From Desulfosoma sp. (GTDB lineage: Bacteria > Desulfobacterota > Syntrophobacteria > Syntrophobacterales > DSM-9756), in the NCBI GenBank assembly GCA_037481875.1, contig JBBFKY010000004.1:62001-126000 (forward strand): a DNA stretch of 64,000 bases, read 5' to 3'. Numbering within the stretch: the first letter of the stretch is position 1; the number at the start of each line of letters is the position of its first letter. Shown here one piece after another: positions 24,337-59,049 of this stretch. The position numbers were made by a program, and so were the translations under genes. The notes beneath the pieces were generated by a model that searched no databases, was not told the DNA's origin, and worked only from the letters and a program-made list of their open reading frames with translations.

Positions 24337-24460
24337 GAAATGGGTGAAGAGATCGGTTTGATGTGGCTGCTCCTTGTCCTGCAAGCTTTTAGGGATCTGG
24401 ATATGGAATGGGGAGATCCATCTGTTCCCGCGACGACTTGAAGGTGTTCCTCAAACGGCT

Positions 24461-26857
24461 ATGGGCCAAATCACGAGAGCGCAAACATCGCGAGAAAGAC
24501 GCTTTGTGCTGGCGTCCGTAGCGGCTGGAGGCTGTGCCGCTACGGCGAACCAAGTGATTGTGGTGCGGGAATGCCTGGCGTTGTTTTATGGAAGTGAATT
24601 GACCATCGGTCTGGTGTTGTTTTTTTGGCTGGTCTGGACTGGGCTTGGAAGCCTTGTGGGTGGGCGTGTATCAAGCCGACTTGACAAGCGTGGTACCGTA
24701 AGCCGCCGTTTCTTATGCGCGCTGATTTCCTTGTACGGGGTGTTCGTGCCGGTGTCCGTCCTTTGGGTTCGAGCTTCCCGCCTCCTTTACGGTCTAAAAC
24801 CTGGCGAATTGGTGCCCTTTGAACGCATGGTCCTGGTGACAGGGCTTGTTACAGCTCCCGTCTGTCTTCTTTTCGGAGTCTTTTTCGCAACAGCCTGGTC
24901 CCTCGATGTTTCTATCCAGCGGACTCCACACGGGAAGTCGTCTTTTCGTCTGTACGCTTTTGAATGCCTTGGAGCCACCATTGGAGGAGTCTGGCTGTAT
25001 GCTTTCTTGCTGTTTGGAGGTCCCCTTCTGCTTGGTGCCGTCCTTTTGGGGGCTCTGGTCACAGCCTTAGGGGTCTGGGGTGTGGTTGATGATGCTTTAC
25101 ATGGTCACAAAGCATGGCGGTTTCTTTTGGTGGGGGCAGCCGCTTGCGTCGTGTGTGGTTTAGGACTTTTTGAAAATTCCAGCCGCCGATGGCAGTGGGG
25201 TCCACATCTGGTCAACGTTCAGGATACTCTTTACCGAAACGTAGCTCTTCTGCAAGATGCGTTTCAAGAATCGATCATGGCCGACGGATCCTGGCTTTTT
25301 TCTTATCCTGATCCTCAGAGCGCTGAAGAAGCCGTTCATTTGACCATGCTTCAGCATGAACGGCCGCATCTTGTTTTAGTCCTGGGAGCTGTAAGCCCTG
25401 AAAATCTTGAACACATGTGCCGCTATGATTCCGTGCGGCGCATCGATGTGGTGGATCCGGACATGACCGTCCACCTTTTCACCAGGCTAAGACAAAATCG
25501 TGTCCAAGAAGGGCCGGGAGCGAAGGAGGAGCGGTTTTCGGCGGATCTTTGGGGGGCCGGTGAAGGAAGGTCGAGTTGCTTTTCGGTTGGGAAGCCTGTT
25601 CGTGTGGCCTTTCTTTCGGCTGATGGACGTCGGTATGTGGAAACCACAGATTCTCGTTACGACGTGGTGTTTCTTCAGGTCGGGGATCCTTTGTGGTTGG
25701 GGGCGAACCGATTTTTCACTCACGAATTCTTTCGTTCTTTGACCCGAGTGTTGCGTCCCGGGGGTATGGTCAGTCTCCATTTCTCGGGGTCCGAAGACAT
25801 GCTTGGAAAAGCTCAGGCCACCTATTTTCGCGTGATGCTTCAGACGTTTCATTCCGTTTTTCCGCACTTGGTTTTCTATCCGGGAGACCGCATCCATCTA
25901 GTGGGTTCCATGGATGGTCGTGCTCTGACGGAGGACCCCGGCCTCTTGAGCCAACGTGCCGAGGAACGCCGGCTGACGCTGGCGTATGTACGGCCGGACC
26001 GGTTGGAAAATCTTTTAGATCCCCTGCGTTTAGCCTACTTTCGGTCTCTAGCGACTCAAGAAAAAAGCCCACGCTGGAATCAGGATTTGGACCCTGTAGG
26101 TTTCTTTGCCGCATCTTCCATGTGGGTGACCCAGTTTCATCCCGGCGTGACCGCTTTTGTGGAGCCTTTGTTGCGCTCGACGCTCTCCTTGAAGGCAGGA
26201 TTTTTTGGCCTATGTGGCATGGTGAGTCTTTTTGGCGTGGTGCTACTTTGGTGCCGTTCCCTTCTGACATGGAGCGTCGCTTTGACCGTGGGGAGTATGG
26301 GAGCCACCCAGATGGCTTTTCAGGTCCTGCTGCTTTTCCTTTATCAGATTGTGGCCGGAGCCCTTTACGCGCATGTGACTGTACTCATCACCACGTGTAT
26401 GGCCGGGCTTGCTGCGGGGACTTTAGCGGTGGATCGAGTAGGAGCGGCCCGCATCCCTCCACTCTGGGCGGTTCGAGTTTTTCTTGGCGTTCAGGTACTG
26501 AGCGCCCTTTTTATGGGGGCCGTCTGCCCTTGGATGCTGGATGGCTTCCCGGGTTTCGTGACTCTCTGGCCCGTGTGGAGTGTTTTGCCCGTCTTTGCCG
26601 GTGTAGGATTTTTTTTCGGGGCTGCGGGAGGAGCTCATTTTGCTTTGGGTTGCCTGGTCATTGAAAAAACCGTCGCTGAAAAGGGTGCCGTGGGAGGGCT
26701 GCTCTATGGAGCCGACATGATCGGAGCCGCCGGTGCCGCCATGCTCACCCCGCTTGTTCTGGTGCCGGTATTTGGGGTTCGGAGTGTCTTTCAGCTTTAC
26801 GGAATCTTGCTGATTCTTGTGCTTGGCATCAGCTGGATGAGCCTTCGCCGGGTTTAA
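24461..26857 (+). CDS. membrane-embedded spermidine-synthase-like protein
   Basis: A 798-aa protein with about seven N-terminal membrane helices (residues 15-235), a soluble Rossmann domain like spermidine synthase (about 240-560), and about seven C-terminal helices (585-795). In the soluble domain the usual GGGEG loop reads VLGAVSPENL, and the aminopropyltransferase signature reads VFLQVGDPLWLGANRFFT, so the classical decarboxy-SAM and polyamine residues are largely missing. RVLRPGGMVSLHFSG is still typical. ATG 24461 was chosen because the family-like helix follows. It converges with the radical SAM gene, overlapping it by 29 bases. Confidence 0.82.
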   Translation: MGQITRAQTSRERRFVLASVAAGGCAATANQVIVVRECLALFYGSELTIGLVLFFWLVWTGLGSLVGGRVSSRLDKRGTVSRRFLCALISLYGVFVPVSVLWVRASRLLYGLKPGELVPFERMVLVTGLVTAPVCLLFGVFFATAWSLDVSIQRTPHGKSSFRLYAFECLGATIGGVWLYAFLLFGGPLLLGAVLLGALVTALGVWGVVDDALHGHKAWRFLLVGAAACVVCGLGLFENSSRRWQWGPHLVNVQDTLYRNVALLQDAFQESIMADGSWLFSYPDPQSAEEAVHLTMLQHERPHLVLVLGAVSPENLEHMCRYDSVRRIDVVDPDMTVHLFTRLRQNRVQEGPGAKEERFSADLWGAGEGRSSCFSVGKPVRVAFLSADGRRYVETTDSRYDVVFLQVGDPLWLGANRFFTHEFFRSLTRVLRPGGMVSLHFSGSEDMLGKAQATYFRVMLQTFHSVFPHLVFYPGDRIHLVGSMDGRALTEDPGLLSQRAEERRLTLAYVRPDRLENLLDPLRLAYFRSLATQEKSPRWNQDLDPVGFFAASSMWVTQFHPGVTAFVEPLLRSTLSLKAGFFGLCGMVSLFGVVLLWCRSLLTWSVALTVGSMGATQMAFQVLLLFLYQIVAGALYAHVTVLITTCMAGLAAGTLAVDRVGAARIPPLWAVRVFLGVQVLSALFMGAVCPWMLDGFPGFVTLWPVWSVLPVFAGVGFFFGAAGGAHFALGCLVIEKTVAEKGAVGGLLYGADMIGAAGAAMLTPLVLVPVFGVRSVFQLYGILLILVLGISWMSLRRV

Positions 26858-27998
26858 GAGGATTCACCCAAATGCCTGGAATCGGCGTGCCGCAACGGCT
26901 GCAGTGTCCTGCATCAAAGGCCTTAAGGCGCACCGTGTAACCGGTCCTTTCGATAATCATAGAGCCACACTTGGAACAATAGGTATGCTCACCGGGATGA
27001 CCGGCAACATTGCCCACATAGACGTAACGCAGCCCTTCCTGCATGGCGATGTTTCTTGCCTTCTCCAAGGTTTCCACAGGCGTGGGCGGAAGGCTTTGCA
27101 GCTTGTAGCGCGGGTAAAACCGACTGAAATGCAAAGGAGTCTCTTCCCCCAAAGCACTAAGCACCCAGCGACTGAGGTCTCGAATATCTTTTTCCGAATC
27201 GTTACGAGTTGGCACAAGAAGGGTCACCAGTTCCGTGTGAACCCTATGGTTTTTGAGTGCTTTCAATGTGTTTAAAACCGGCTCCAAGGAACCTTCCGTC
27301 ATGTCCCGGTAGTAATCGTCTCGAATGGATTTAAGGTCGATGCAGGCGGCGTGCAGATAAGGGATCAAGTCGTTTAAGGGACCGTGATTGATGAAGCCGT
27401 TGGAATGCATGACATTAAGGATGCCGGCTTTGGAGGCTTCCATGCCGATATCTTTCATGTATTCGAAGAAAATGGTGGGTTCGACGTAAGTGGAAGCGAT
27501 GGAGGCACACCCGTATTGGGAAGCCAGAGTCACAACGTTTTGAGGTGAAAGGGCAACGTTCAGGGTGTTTTCGGGGCGCGCCTGTGAAATTTCCCAGTTT
27601 TGACAAAACTTGCAATCGAAATTGCACCCGGCGGTAGCCAAAGAAAAGGATCGGCTTCCAGGCAGCACATGGAAGAAGGGCTTCTTTTCCACGGGATCCA
27701 CATGGACGGCGCACGGGTTTGCGTAGACCAACGTGTAATAGACGCCATCGCGGTTTTCCCTCACTTCGCAATAGCCCCTTTCTCCTGGCTCCACTTCGCA
27801 TTCTCTGGGGCATAACGTGCAGCGAATCCTTTTGTTTTCCAAGGCCGTGTAATAGGGAGACACCTTGGGTTGCATGAAACCTTTTTGAAAGGAAAGGGCC
27901 GAAGCTTTAGACGGCTTCCAAAGGCAGTCGACTCCCCATAAAAAGCTCGCCACGGTGCAGCCTCGAAGCATCGTGAGGCAAAAAGTTCGCCGATCCAT
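26829..27998 (-). CDS. AmmeMemoRadiSam system radical SAM enzyme, probable Tat substrate
   Basis: Radical SAM protein (389 aa) of the AmmeMemoRadiSam family, whose reaction is unknown. The SAM cluster motif is CNFDCKFC (Cys125, 129, 132). Before it are Cys60, 63, 67 and 77 (CTLCPREC...YC), and near the C-terminus two CxxC pairs (Cys341/344 and 366/369), suggesting more metal sites. The N-terminus MDRRTFCLTML, with Arg3-Arg4 and a short hydrophobic stretch, looks like a Tat signal, so the folded enzyme may work outside the cytosol. Ribosome-binding site GAAGGGG. Same strand as the exported Memo-AMMECR1 gene 305 bases upstream. Confidence 0.92.
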   Translation of the reverse strand: MDRRTFCLTMLRGCTVASFLWGVDCLWKPSKASALSFQKGFMQPKVSPYYTALENKRIRCTLCPRECEVEPGERGYCEVRENRDGVYYTLVYANPCAVHVDPVEKKPFFHVLPGSRSFSLATAGCNFDCKFCQNWEISQARPENTLNVALSPQNVVTLASQYGCASIASTYVEPTIFFEYMKDIGMEASKAGILNVMHSNGFINHGPLNDLIPYLHAACIDLKSIRDDYYRDMTEGSLEPVLNTLKALKNHRVHTELVTLLVPTRNDSEKDIRDLSRWVLSALGEETPLHFSRFYPRYKLQSLPPTPVETLEKARNIAMQEGLRYVYVGNVAGHPGEHTYCSKCGSMIIERTGYTVRLKAFDAGHCSRCGTPIPGIWVNPLKPGEGSSS

Positions 27999-28303: not shown

Positions 28304-29830
28304 TCAGAAGACTTCCGCTGTAAAAACAAAGATTTCTGTTTCCGGTTCTTTCCACGCCTCAGGGTTCAGGCCTGCTTTGAGGCATGTTTGCCGAAGAAAG
28401 GTTTCCTGGTTCCAGCCTTGTTCTACGGGTACCTGGGGAAGGAGAAGCCCGGCTTGGGATCCTCGGCGCATGTAAAGCCCATGAATCCCGACCTGCACCT
28501 GGGACGGATCTTTGAGTTTCACCAAGGGGGATAACACGGAAATTTCCAATTCTAGGTCGTTCCATTCTTTTGAGGAGAGCGGGGGAAAGCGCGGGTCATG
28601 AAAAGCTGCAGCCAGCACCATACGGGAGACGGTTTGGGCCAGCGGCCATCGAGCTTCGATGTGGCCGATGCATCCCCTGAGTTGTCCGTGACGTTTGAGT
28701 GTCACAAAAGCTCCGCGAGGTTCTTGCAATGCCTTTGGAAGTGTTGAAAGGTCAAGGTCCGGAACGGTCTTGCCGAAAAGAGCGGCTTCAAGGGTGTCCC
28801 GTGCCAGGGTCTTCAGCCGCGCTTTATGTTCATCACTTAGCGTCGGGGCCGAAGGACTCAGAGGGCCCTGCACCATAGAACTTCTTTTCTGGGAATCATC
28901 GTGGAACACGGCGGCGGCCGCATAGCCTACGACACGGCTTTTTTCGCCTGTCACATCGGCGGAAGTGGCGTAGTGCAAAACGCTCATGTTTTTAGCGCCC
29001 CTTTTTTGGGCGTAAAGGAGCAAGGTGACTAAAGGACCCGCTCCGCAGGCTTCACAAGCGCCTGAACTCAAGTCCTGCCAGAGCTCGCGGGATTCCAGAC
29101 GCTTCAACCTATCCAGGACTCGAGCGTCCATGACGCGAGCCTCCACGTCCGCATGATAATGAGAAAGATCCGTGCTGGCCACCACAAGGAATCGAAAGGA
29201 TGAGGAGAGAGCACTGAGTGCTTGGGCCACCCTTTCGCAGGTATCCCAGGAGACATTCCCGAAGACAAGGGGAACCAAGCGAAAGGAGGGAAGCACTGTC
29301 TGAAGGAAAGGAAGCTGAATCTCGACGGCGTGTTCCCTAGCGTGCGCCGGAGGATAATCCCGAACGTCCGGGCAACTCTTGAGAAGCGCCTCGATGAGAT
29401 CCGCCTGTAAGGGGACCTGACCTAGAGGTGTGGCAAACGGGCCCTCCCGAAAAACGGAAACACCCGGAAAAGACACGCGATGGCTTGGAGCCAGGATCAC
29501 CACAGCCTCCGCGGGGTGATCCTGAACCAGCCTGTAAGCATAGGCCGCGACGGGACCGCTGTAGACGATTCCTGCATGAGGGGCCACAATGCCCAGAAAA
29601 TGTCCATCTCGAGGTAGATCTTTGGGAAGATCGGCCCGCTGCAAATACTTGTCAATGGTGGCACGTAGTTCCCCGGCATCCGCAGGATACCATGAACCAG
29701 CGAGGATAGGGGATCGAACCTTATCTTGTGTCCAAGCCGGCTCGGCGCTCCAGCCCTGAAAAAGGAAGGCCACCAGAAAGGTCAGCACCGGTCCAATGAA
29801 CAATCGGTTTTGCCCGGGGAATAGGTTCAT
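28304..29830 (-). CDS. exported Memo-AMMECR1 fusion (AmmeMemoRadiSam proteins B and A)
   Basis: A 508-aa fusion of a Memo-like domain (about 38-310) and an AMMECR1 domain (about 335-508). Residues 1-30 form a Sec-type signal (hydrophobic FIGPVLTFLVAFLFQG, then WSAEPAW), so the mature protein should be periplasmic or anchored. Memo metal-site residues are kept: His85 (APHAG), His117 (APSHR), His167 (REHAVEIQLPF), Asp221/His224 (STDLSHYH) and Cys262 (EACGAGPL). AMMECR1 has LRGCIG at 384-389. ATG 29830 overlaps the TGA of the kinase-like gene. Function of the family is unknown. Confidence 0.92.
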   Translation of the reverse strand: MNLFPGQNRLFIGPVLTFLVAFLFQGWSAEPAWTQDKVRSPILAGSWYPADAGELRATIDKYLQRADLPKDLPRDGHFLGIVAPHAGIVYSGPVAAYAYRLVQDHPAEAVVILAPSHRVSFPGVSVFREGPFATPLGQVPLQADLIEALLKSCPDVRDYPPAHAREHAVEIQLPFLQTVLPSFRLVPLVFGNVSWDTCERVAQALSALSSSFRFLVVASTDLSHYHADVEARVMDARVLDRLKRLESRELWQDLSSGACEACGAGPLVTLLLYAQKRGAKNMSVLHYATSADVTGEKSRVVGYAAAAVFHDDSQKRSSMVQGPLSPSAPTLSDEHKARLKTLARDTLEAALFGKTVPDLDLSTLPKALQEPRGAFVTLKRHGQLRGCIGHIEARWPLAQTVSRMVLAAAFHDPRFPPLSSKEWNDLELEISVLSPLVKLKDPSQVQVGIHGLYMRRGSQAGLLLPQVPVEQGWNQETFLRQTCLKAGLNPEAWKEPETEIFVFTAEVF

Positions 29831-30447
29831 GAAGCGGCATTCTTTTCGATCCATTTGGCGATCAGCTCCACGGCATCGTCTAAAGGAATGCGGCTAAGGT
29901 TCAAAACCGCATGGTACAAATGGGCATCGTCCCACGCGCGGTTGAAGTAGTGTTCCACATACTCGGCGGATTCTTTTTCTTCACGCTCAATGAGGTCCCG
30001 AGCCGAGCGCTCGTCCATGTCCAGGTTTTCGCGAAGCCATAGAATACGGTCTTCCAGTGTTTTAACAATGCGAAGATGGACGGCTTTAGGGTGATCGGCC
30101 AGGATGCACTGGGCTCCCCACCCTAGAATAATCACATTGTCTTCGGCGGCCACTTTTTGAACGAGTTTCACGGTGACTTCATGATAGGTCTTATCATCCA
30201 AGCGGCCGTAAGAACGGTCCACCACTTTTTGCACCACACTGGAGGTGTATCGGTCGATGAGGCGAAGAAGCCTGGACTCCCGTTCCTTGTGAAAGCTTTG
30301 AGCTTCGCTGGGGGAAATGCGCAGTTCCTTGGCCGCTTCGGCCACGATCTGTCGGTCGAGAATGCTGTAGCCTAAGCGCTCTGCCAATCTTTTTGCAAAT
30401 TCCTCACTTTGGGATGCATATTCCTTACTGATGGTAATCACCGCCAT
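29827..30447 (-). CDS. cytidylate-kinase-like family protein (AAA_26)
   Basis: A 206-aa P-loop-kinase-related protein of the cytidylate-kinase-like family. It begins VITISKEYASQSEEFAKRLAERLGY, where the usual GSGG loop is replaced, then ILDRQIV, the central NVIILGWGAQCILADHP and RIVKTLEDRILWLREN. The degenerate P-loop makes true CMP kinase activity unlikely; a regulatory or other phosphotransfer role is possible. ATG 30447 follows CAGGAGG. Its stop overlaps the start of the exported Memo-AMMECR1 gene, so the two are coupled. Confidence 0.85.
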   Translation of the reverse strand: MAVITISKEYASQSEEFAKRLAERLGYSILDRQIVAEAAKELRISPSEAQSFHKERESRLLRLIDRYTSSVVQKVVDRSYGRLDDKTYHEVTVKLVQKVAAEDNVIILGWGAQCILADHPKAVHLRIVKTLEDRILWLRENLDMDERSARDLIEREEKESAEYVEHYFNRAWDDAHLYHAVLNLSRIPLDDAVELIAKWIEKNAAS

Positions 30448-47412: not shown

Positions 47413-48834
47413 ATGGGATCGGAAAAGGTTCGTGAATCCGTTATTGCGGGCACATGGTATCCCGGAAATCCGGAAAAGCTTCGCAAAAACATTGTGGAAT
47501 ATTTGTCGAAGGCATCGACGGCAAACATTTCCGGTCGACTGGTCGGGGTGGTGGCTCCGCACGCCGGTTATATGTATTCGGGGCCTGTGGCGGCTTACGC
47601 CTACAAACTCCTTGAAGGAAAACCGATCAAACGGGTTCTCATCATGGCGCCGAGCCATCGGGCCTACTTCAGCGGGGCCAGTGTGGACGATGCAGCGGGT
47701 TATCGCACCCCATTAGGCGTGGTCCCAGTGGATCGAGCCCTAGCCCAAAAGCTTACGGCCCATAAGGATCTCTTCTCCCATGTGCCGCAGGCTCACGCCC
47801 AGGAACATTCCCTGGAAATTCAACTACCTTTTTTACAAGTGGTCCTGCAAGACTTTCGCATGACCCCGGTTTTGATTGGTGACGTGACCCTGGAAGCATG
47901 CCGACGCTTGGCCCACGTTGTGGCCGAGGCGGTCGCCGACGATGATGTATTGTTGGTGGCGAGCACTGATCTCTCCCATTACTATCCGTACCAGGAAGCC
48001 AAGAAGCTGGATGCACGTGTCATCGAAAAAGTCGATCGCTTTGATCCGGAAGGGCTCTTTGAAGCGTTGCAAAAAAGGGAGTGTGAAGCCTGCGGGGGGG
48101 GGCCTCTGGTGACAACACTTCTTGCCGCTCGAGAACTAGGGGCCAACAAGGCACGCGTCCTCTACTATGCCAATTCCGGCGATGTGACGGGAGATGTTCG
48201 AGGGGTGGTGGGGTATATGGCAGCCGCCCTTTTCGATAACCCAGGAAAAGCGTTCAAGGAATTCCCTTCCGCTGATGCCTCTGAGAATGTCGACCAAGAG
48301 ACGTTTTCCGAAGAAGAAAGAACTATTCTACGTCGTTTGGCATGGCAGGCGATAAATTGGAAACTGGGCCGGGATTCGGAACCTGTCTATAAAGGAACGG
48401 GCTCAAAGCTTTTAGAAAAACGAGGTGCTTTTGTCACTCTGCACAAGCACGGGACCCTTCGAGGATGTATCGGCTATGTGGAAGCTCATAAGCCATTGTG
48501 GCAAACGGTCAAAGAAGCGGCGGTGCAGGCGGCCTTTGCTGATCCTCGGTTTCCACCGGTGCGTGCCGATGAGCTGGAGGGTCTGGAATTGGAAATTTCT
48601 GCCCTAAGTCCCCTGGAACGCATCAAGGACCCTCTTGATTTTTCCGTGGGACGCCATGGTCTGGTGATTCGTAAAGGCTACCACAGCGGACTGCTGTTGC
48701 CTCAGGTTGCGGTGGAGCATGGCTGGACGAAAGAGCAGTTTCTGGACTGGACATGCAAAAAGGCCGGGCTTTCTCCAGGATGCTGGAAACATGGGGAGGC
48801 TGAGGTCTACCGGTTTTCGGCGGAAGTGTTTTAG
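47413..48834 (+). CDS. cytosolic Memo-AMMECR1 fusion (second copy)
   Basis: A 473-aa fusion of Memo-like (about 7-275) and AMMECR1 (about 300-473) domains without any signal peptide, starting directly at the Memo fold (VRESVIAGTWYPGN). Metal-site residues match the exported paralogue: His50 (APHAG), His82 (APSHR), His132 (QEHSLEIQLPF), Asp186/His189 (STDLSHYY) and Cys227 (EACGGGPL). LRGCIG lies at 349-354. No radical SAM gene is adjacent. Ribosome-binding site GGGGGAAG. Biochemical function unknown. Confidence 0.92.
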   Translation: MGSEKVRESVIAGTWYPGNPEKLRKNIVEYLSKASTANISGRLVGVVAPHAGYMYSGPVAAYAYKLLEGKPIKRVLIMAPSHRAYFSGASVDDAAGYRTPLGVVPVDRALAQKLTAHKDLFSHVPQAHAQEHSLEIQLPFLQVVLQDFRMTPVLIGDVTLEACRRLAHVVAEAVADDDVLLVASTDLSHYYPYQEAKKLDARVIEKVDRFDPEGLFEALQKRECEACGGGPLVTTLLAARELGANKARVLYYANSGDVTGDVRGVVGYMAAALFDNPGKAFKEFPSADASENVDQETFSEEERTILRRLAWQAINWKLGRDSEPVYKGTGSKLLEKRGAFVTLHKHGTLRGCIGYVEAHKPLWQTVKEAAVQAAFADPRFPPVRADELEGLELEISALSPLERIKDPLDFSVGRHGLVIRKGYHSGLLLPQVAVEHGWTKEQFLDWTCKKAGLSPGCWKHGEAEVYRFSAEVF

Positions 48835-57751: not shown

Positions 57752-58132
57752 ATGAAATCACTAGGAAAACACCTCATCGTGGAGCTCTATGACTGCGACT
57801 TTGACCTCATCAACGATGTCTCCCAGGTGGAGAAGATCTTGGTGGAGGCGGTCGCCATTTCCAAAGCCACCATTGTCCAACCTGTTTTTCATCAGTTTTC
57901 GCCGCACGGCGTGAGCGGCGTCGTGGTCATCGCCGAATCGCATTTTACCATTCACACATGGCCCGAATACGGCTACTGTGCCCTGGACATCTTTACGTGC
58001 GGCGAACTGATCGACTCGGACGCTTCCTTAGCCTATTTGCAAGAGGCTTTCAAGGCGGGCAGCTTCTCCGTCATGGAGATCAAACGAGGGGTGTTGAATC
58101 TGCCGGCGGACCGATTGAGACATAAGCCGTGA
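57752..58132 (+). CDS. speD: S-adenosylmethionine decarboxylase proenzyme
   Basis: Pyruvoyl enzyme that makes decarboxylated SAM, the aminopropyl donor. 126 aa of the short prokaryotic type. Self-cleavage is expected between Glu62 and Ser63 in AESHFTIHTWPE, converting Ser63 to the pyruvoyl group. Cys82 in YCALDIFTCG region is also typical. Ribosome-binding site GAGGAAG. Its TGA overlaps the GTG start of speE. Confidence 0.96.
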   Translation: MKSLGKHLIVELYDCDFDLINDVSQVEKILVEAVAISKATIVQPVFHQFSPHGVSGVVVIAESHFTIHTWPEYGYCALDIFTCGELIDSDASLAYLQEAFKAGSFSVMEIKRGVLNLPADRLRHKP

Positions 58133-59049
58133 CGGAAAAACTTCAGGCCCGTCTGTGGTACCGCGAGCTGGCAAGCAGTGGAGAGGAGACCTCCTACGCA
58201 TGCCGAGGAGTGCTTTATCACGGGCGGTCCCTTTATCAGCAGATCGATATTGTTGAGACGGAGATGCACGGCACCGTGCTTTTCCTTGACGGCGTGGTGC
58301 AGTCGGCGCAAAAGGACGAGTTTATCTATCACGAGGTGCTCGTGCATCCAGCCATGTGGAGTCATCCTGCGCCTCAAAGTGTGCTTATTATCGGGGGCGG
58401 CGAAGGCGCCACTTTGCGGGAAGTGTGCCGACACTCGTATGTGCGGCGCATTGTTATGGTCGAGATCGATGGGGAGTTGGTGGAGATAAGCAGGCGCCTG
58501 CTGCCTCAATGGCATCAAGGCGCCTTTGACGATCCAAGGGTCGAGCTGATCATCGGAGATGGAAGGACCTTTGTGGAAAATACCGATGAAAAGTTCGATG
58601 TTGCAGTGTTGGATCTCAGCGACCCAATGGACGAAAGCCCGGCGGCCTTATTGTTTACTCAGGAATTCTATCGAAAGGTGGCGGATTGCTTGACGCCTTT
58701 GGGATGTGTGTCTGTTCAAGGGGAATGCATCAGCCCTCAAAAGGTTGTGGCGCACGCGCGTATTTTCAATACTCTTAAACACGTGTTTCCCATTGTGAAA
58801 ACGTGCCCCTACAGCTTGCACAGCTTTCATCGACCCGACGCCCATATTCTAGCCAGTAAGAACCCCGATTGGTCCACGGCTGATGTGGTCGAGCGGGCTC
58901 GATCGACGCATCTGCCGCTCCGGTACCTGAGTGCGGCTATGGTGGAAAAGCTTTTTGCTGTTCCTCCCTATCTTGAAGAAGCCTATGCAGTCCATTGCGA
59001 GCCGCTGACGGATGCCGCCCACCACTTGACCTCTGAAGATCTCTTGTAA
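58129..59049 (+). CDS. speE: polyamine aminopropyltransferase (spermidine synthase)
   Basis: Transfers the aminopropyl group from decarboxylated SAM to putrescine or a similar amine. 306 aa with GGGEGATLREV (SAM-like site), VEIDGELVEISR, the Asp in VLDLSDPMDESPAALLFTQEFY, and SVQGECIS. GTG start overlaps the speD stop. Unlike the membrane protein at 24461, all catalytic motifs look intact. Confidence 0.96.
   Translation: MTEKLQARLWYRELASSGEETSYACRGVLYHGRSLYQQIDIVETEMHGTVLFLDGVVQSAQKDEFIYHEVLVHPAMWSHPAPQSVLIIGGGEGATLREVCRHSYVRRIVMVEIDGELVEISRRLLPQWHQGAFDDPRVELIIGDGRTFVENTDEKFDVAVLDLSDPMDESPAALLFTQEFYRKVADCLTPLGCVSVQGECISPQKVVAHARIFNTLKHVFPIVKTCPYSLHSFHRPDAHILASKNPDWSTADVVERARSTHLPLRYLSAAMVEKLFAVPPYLEEAYAVHCEPLTDAAHHLTSEDLL

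Follow-up and report, generated by a model that had tools for sequence, protein, structure and literature searches.

We identified two complete AmmeMemoRadiSam sets, each comprising a Memo-AMMECR1 fusion and a radical SAM enzyme, in the genome of the Desulfosoma species that contains the window (the whole 64,000-nucleotide stretch of DNA analysed here). The two sets are anciently separated, and one of them probably acts outside the cytoplasm. Two clades, matched signals, co-occurrence and conserved active residues are all strongly supported by the sequence comparisons. The putative cytosolic set would consist of the fusion at 47413-48834 and an unlinked, signal-less radical SAM enzyme encoded elsewhere in the genome. 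The putative exported set would consist of a fusion with a Sec signal and a radical SAM enzyme with a Tat-like signal, encoded beside an MFS-like membrane protein with a degenerate spermidine-synthase domain. The features are as follows.

47413..48834, + strand: cytosolic Memo-AMMECR1 fusion, 473 aa, TIGR04336 and TIGR04335, no signal, cytosolic clade
28304..29830, - strand: exported Memo-AMMECR1 fusion, 508 aa from the ATG at 29830 (516 aa from 29854), exported clade
29735..29830, - strand: Sec-type signal peptide of the exported fusion; extent approximate, read directly from the sequence; hydrophobicity 2.4
26829..27998, - strand: AmmeMemoRadiSam radical SAM enzyme of the exported set, 389 aa, CX3CX2C at C125/C129/C132, TIGR04337 364 bits
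27897..27998, - strand: Tat-like N-terminal signal of the radical SAM enzyme, MDRRTFCLTMLRGCTVASFLWG, extent approximate; R-R/K-x-F kept in the exported clade
24374..26857, + strand: 12-TM MFS-like membrane protein with an inserted spermidine-synthase-like domain, 827 aa (PF01564, linkage, AlphaFold2)
G000:C2:426965-427963, on another contig: signal-less AmmeMemoRadiSam radical SAM enzyme, TIGR04337 358 bits

The single open frame at 47413-48834 (+) carries a Memo domain (PF01875, 225.6 bits, residues 10-271) and an AMMECR1 domain (PF01871, 193.7 bits, residues 308-473), and inspection of its N-terminus revealed no hydrophobic segment. The same two domains occur in the exported fusion, listed as 28304-29854 (-). 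The first-pass annotation was thus correct that this architecture is present twice, once with a signal peptide and once without, both Pfam domains being found in each copy. The two fusions score 291.6 and 267.3 bits with TIGR04336 (cut-off 26 bits) and 186.2 and 185.8 bits with TIGR04335 (cut-off 99 bits). The start of the exported fusion is better placed at 29830 than at 29854, because the ATG there overlaps the stop of the upstream kinase-like gene (ATGA). In the N-terminus of the 508-aa protein, MNLFPGQNRLFIGPVLTFLVAFLFQG, a Sec-type signal can be read directly. Plasmid spread was considered and rejected: the fusion has no DNA relatives among plasmids, and the relatives of the radical SAM gene found there are distant only.

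The radical SAM gene of the exported set lies downstream of the exported fusion, the two genes being side by side, whereas the cytosolic radical SAM gene is on a different contig from its fusion. The earlier reading had overlooked an export signal on the radical SAM enzyme itself, whose N-terminus (MDRRTFCLTM...) resembles those of Tat substrates in having a twin-arginine motif and, after it, a stretch of moderate hydrophobicity. With the curated Tat model TIGR01409 (cut-off 16.7), the related enzymes of loci L157 and L164 score 14.7 and 14.9 bits and that of L170 scores 19.2; no match was reported for the window enzyme. A genome search showed that TatC is encoded in the window's own genome.

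The same genome was found to hold two radical SAM genes above the TIGR04337 cut-off of 220 bits (364 and 358 bits), and therefore two complete sets. The second has the N-terminus MKEAAMHEARFYTQEEKNAVRC, with no signal. The observation that only the exported copy has a radical SAM gene nearby is true within the window and fails genome-wide, given the second TIGR04337 gene on another contig. A third, divergent Memo without AMMECR1 is also encoded on that contig (G000:C2:282831-283697, - strand, locus L003, about 417 aa with an N-terminal extension), and no signal was seen on it. Memo-like proteins of this type occur in nearly every relative.

A Memo tree of 79 proteins required two changes of the signal/no-signal label, against a mean of 25 for shuffled labels, and 31 of its 32 cytosolic rows grouped together with moderate branch support (85/88). 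In the radical SAM tree, a branch with full support (SH-aLRT 100) had 37 cytosolic rows to one side; two further rows scored as cytosolic, with short or atypical N-termini, fell on the other side. Because an exported-type query was used to retrieve the distant loci, both trees under-represent distant cytosolic forms. The phylogeny proposed with the first-pass annotation thus yielded separate clades for the exported and cytosolic forms and a radical SAM clade for each, and the split is far older than the strain. The alternative that one radical SAM enzyme serves both fusions, or that the fusions are recent duplicates in one strain, could be drawn from the window, where there is a single radical SAM gene near either fusion. 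It is most improbable: the genome carries one radical SAM enzyme of each type, in separate clades, for which reason we reject the shared partner suggested earlier, and strain-specific duplication is countered by the separate clades of the fusions and by the presence of all four genes in 15 of 41 relatives.

The iron-binding residues of human MEMO1 are H49, H81 and C244 (PMC11081632), which correspond to H50, H82 and C227 of the 473-aa fusion. As had been claimed, these residues, D186 and H189, and the LRGCIG motif (349-354) are kept in both copies. When 49 exported fusions were aligned with 22 cytosolic ones, each of these positions proved at least 93% conserved in either group. This alignment rules out loss of active residues in the cytosolic relatives. 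The CX3CX2C motif of the radical SAM enzymes is intact in 146 of 146. The proposal of a two-compartment pair is supported by the old split into separate clades, by active residues in both forms, and by a radical SAM clade for each.

Among 59 relatives, nearly every genome had Memo genes and one or both radical SAM types, which form two classes, one with R-R-x-F-L type signals and the other with MKEAMLYEKLE-type starts. The exported radical SAM enzyme and the exported fusion occurred together in 25 of 41 relatives, with three having only the radical SAM enzyme, none only the fusion, and 13 neither (Fisher p=3e-8). The corresponding tie between cytosolic radical SAM and cytosolic Memo was not significant (p=0.25), since the cytosolic radical SAM enzyme is near-ubiquitous and cytosolic Memo was not found in seven class-level relatives that keep it (L155-L168; genomes G036, G040, G041, G042, G044, G046 and G048). 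Pairing in the cytosolic set is loose, and the cytosolic radical SAM enzyme of those seven relatives may serve another partner. A divergent subgroup of exported-type radical SAM enzymes has R-K in place of R-R (L116, L137 and L152), and no exported fusion was found in the L116 and L137 genomes. One relative (G030) has a third radical SAM copy with an in-frame stop (L144:3631-4644), probably a pseudogene or an assembly error.

Genome contigs scanned with the exported radical SAM alignment contained at least 577 relatives and yielded 80 loci, from Desulfobacterota, Omnitrophota, Acidobacteriota, Aminicenantes, Zixibacteria, KSB1, Planctomycetota, Calditrichota, Latescibacterota, WOR-3 and others. 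Scored by a simple rule of hydrophobicity and motif rather than by SignalP, 102 of 109 exported-type radical SAM loci were signal-like and 93 had an RR/KR/RK-x-hydrophobic motif, against none of 37 cytosolic-type loci in either case; the 109 include duplicates, as L172/L098 and L173/L135 are apparently the same contigs in two collections. Where fusion and radical SAM genes were linked, both products had a signal in 42 of 43 pairs; in the remaining pair (L237) it is apparent on visual inspection. The Omnitrophota and a few others have, in place of the Tat motif, a hydrophobic segment of Sec-like character that begins with positive charge. TatC was present in all 23 of the distant genomes with a Tat-type radical SAM enzyme and was not detected in 7 of the 14 with a Sec-type enzyme (37 genomes in total, p=3e-4). 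Many of these genomes are draft assemblies, so single absences of TatC are weak and the association is the evidence. Our comparison strongly supports the view that the export signals of the exported set are under selection. By a hand count, 24 of the 37 genomes had a short stand-alone and a long fused Memo, and five had two long ones.

We consider it quite probable that the exported set functions extracytoplasmically. In this case the radical SAM enzyme would fold and receive its [4Fe-4S] cluster prior to export by Tat, and the fusion would cross via Sec. Alternatively, the signals could only anchor the proteins at the membrane or bring them to it. The radical SAM enzyme would then work on the cytoplasmic side, or on the fusion while this is still nascent and not yet exported, and there would be no radical chemistry outside the cytoplasm. 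Both SAM and low-potential reductants are cytoplasmic, and translation from an internal ATG (M42), which immediately precedes the domain in the window enzyme, could yield a signal-less form. This ATG is not conserved outside the genus, however, and the Tat and Sec N-termini predict an N-in/C-out topology; in the Sec-type radical SAM N-termini the n-region is the more positive in 13 of 14, with one tie. Moreover, all seven genomes without detected TatC carry a Sec-type signal in place of a Tat-type one, rather than none, and the fusion crosses Sec unfolded, so that a folded substrate would exist outside only. Tethering is therefore fairly unlikely. The radical SAM enzyme might take hydrogen from AMMECR1 at its invariant LRGCIG loop, or activate this loop in another way, after which the fusion might apply its Memo iron site to an envelope substrate; we regard this scheme as doubtful.

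We compared the neighbouring genes by operon walking. The gene for the 827-aa protein is convergent with the radical SAM gene and overlaps its end by 29 bp. An MFS/spermidine-synthase-like gene is the neighbour at 19 of the 29 exported loci from relatives and at 34 of the 80 from distant genomes, against none of 39 cytosolic radical SAM and none of 33 cytosolic fusion loci. It occurs downstream on either strand, suggesting that the adjacency survives inversions. The AlphaFold2 model of the 827-aa protein is confident (pLDDT 85, pTM 0.87). Its middle part matches spermidine synthases, with the aminopropyltransferase fold (Z up to 27), and its 12 helices match MFS transporters, including SV2A (Z 25.9) and GLUT3 (Z 18.4).

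A role for the exported set in a polyamine pathway, with this protein making or moving polyamines for the exported enzymes, would be in keeping with the Spermine_synth domain and its fold and with human SLC45A4 (Z 17.7) among the fold matches. However, nearly all aligned members have other residues in place of the catalytic Asp of the TDSSDP (DSSDP) motif and of the Asp in GGGDGG, and the scores are far below the NCBIfam cut-offs for true aminopropyltransferases; a polyamine role is thus improbable. The nucleoside pocket has largely retained its acidic positions; the roles assigned to these Asp and acidic positions are those known for spermidine synthases. Tentatively, the membrane protein may bind an adenosyl ligand at its cytoplasmic side and move SAM out or spent products back. 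It is possible, with rather less than even likelihood, that the whole is a widespread extracytoplasmic radical SAM system, in which a Tat- or Sec-exported radical SAM enzyme would act on exported Memo-AMMECR1 while a dedicated MFS transporter would supply SAM or remove products through a degenerate spermidine-synthase module for SAM recognition.

The closest known family is AmmeMemoRadiSam itself (TIGR04335, TIGR04336 and TIGR04337, the radical SAM enzyme being annotated amrS). Both fusions and both radical SAM enzymes are far above the cut-offs, and the active-site motifs are the same in both sets. The sets described here differ in that Memo and AMMECR1 are fused, in that one set has Sec and Tat-like signals and a membrane partner, and in that the cytosolic set is unlinked from its radical SAM gene. 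We found no description of an exported AmmeMemoRadiSam system in the open-access literature, nor do we know of one.

The best sequence and fold matches of the radical SAM enzyme are glycyl-radical enzyme activases, led by the PFL-activating enzyme (PDB 3c8f, 3cb8; Foldseek E 5e-13, with the next family at 3e-7). The CX3CX2C motif is shared, and a protein substrate is plausible. Unlike the activases, the enzyme is below every activase cut-off (PFLA 54.4 vs 231.75 bits, YjjW 55.8 vs 250.2) and carries additional Cys motifs, namely a CxLCxxxC...C cluster near the N-terminus and CxxC pairs in the C-terminal part; no glycyl radical enzyme was seen in its locus.

The Memo domain belongs to the same fold family as human MEMO1 (PDB 7KQ8, phmmer E 6.5e-24), of which we know no radical SAM partner and which is cytosolic and has no AMMECR1 fusion. 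The third iron ligand, C227, is a Cys as in MEMO1, whereas extradiol dioxygenases (LigB) have a site of two His and one Glu; the His, His, Cys ligands of MEMO1 are conserved here (PMC11081632). The membrane protein resembles the fused MFS/spermidine synthase family NF037959 in its 12-TM MFS-like architecture with the spermidine-synthase-like domain between the halves. That model's cut-off of 40 bits is passed by the relatives L201 (44.9) and L206 (47.7), the window protein having been scanned with Pfam only. The 827-aa family departs from polyamine aminopropyltransferases in having lost the catalytic Asp while mostly keeping nucleoside-binding acidic positions, and from these and NF037959 in its genetic tie to an exported radical SAM enzyme.

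Memo and AMMECR1 are conserved up to humans. An exported counterpart that shares their active residues limits the functions that they could have, since the chemistry must then make sense outside the cytoplasm. Burroughs et al. (2019, a paper cited in PMC7694686 and PMC7159879) are said to have tied Memo to modification of nucleotide bases and isoprenoids, and the window genes sit among RNA methyltransferase genes. Memo-AMMECR1 and its radical SAM enzyme could accordingly modify RNA or nucleotide bases, the exported copy being a secondary offshoot with another job. Both forms have the same active residues, however, and so probably catalyse the same chemistry. RNA would be an improbable substrate outside the cytoplasm, and we consider this explanation unlikely. 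It is difficult to square an RNA-only role with an exported set whose active residues are unchanged; an isoprenoid role is possible. The conservation of an export signal on a radical SAM enzyme across many phyla is unexpected, given the view that this chemistry depends on materials available only within the cell. We know of no radical SAM enzyme that has been shown to act outside the cytoplasm, and the exported enzyme raises a question for radical SAM biochemistry. The analysis also names a candidate membrane partner, with movement of SAM or nucleosides as its candidate function. AMMECR1 is among the top marker domains for anaerobes (PMC13386939), and the system is therefore ecologically broad.

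A second, separate spermidine-synthase-like frame occurs in the window at 58126-59049 (+); it matches the 827-aa protein weakly, at 87 bits. The gene directly upstream of the exported radical SAM gene in other phyla (L192, L198, L201, L211, L246 and others) encodes DUF362 and is on the same strand in 34 of 34 matches. About half of the DUF362 copies have a Tat-like N-terminus, and a sequence search found no relative among solved structures. In the Omnitrophota (L205, L212, L234 and others), a membrane gene of the cytochrome c biogenesis type (DsbD_2) lies downstream of the exported radical SAM gene, and its product is a possible electron route across the membrane.
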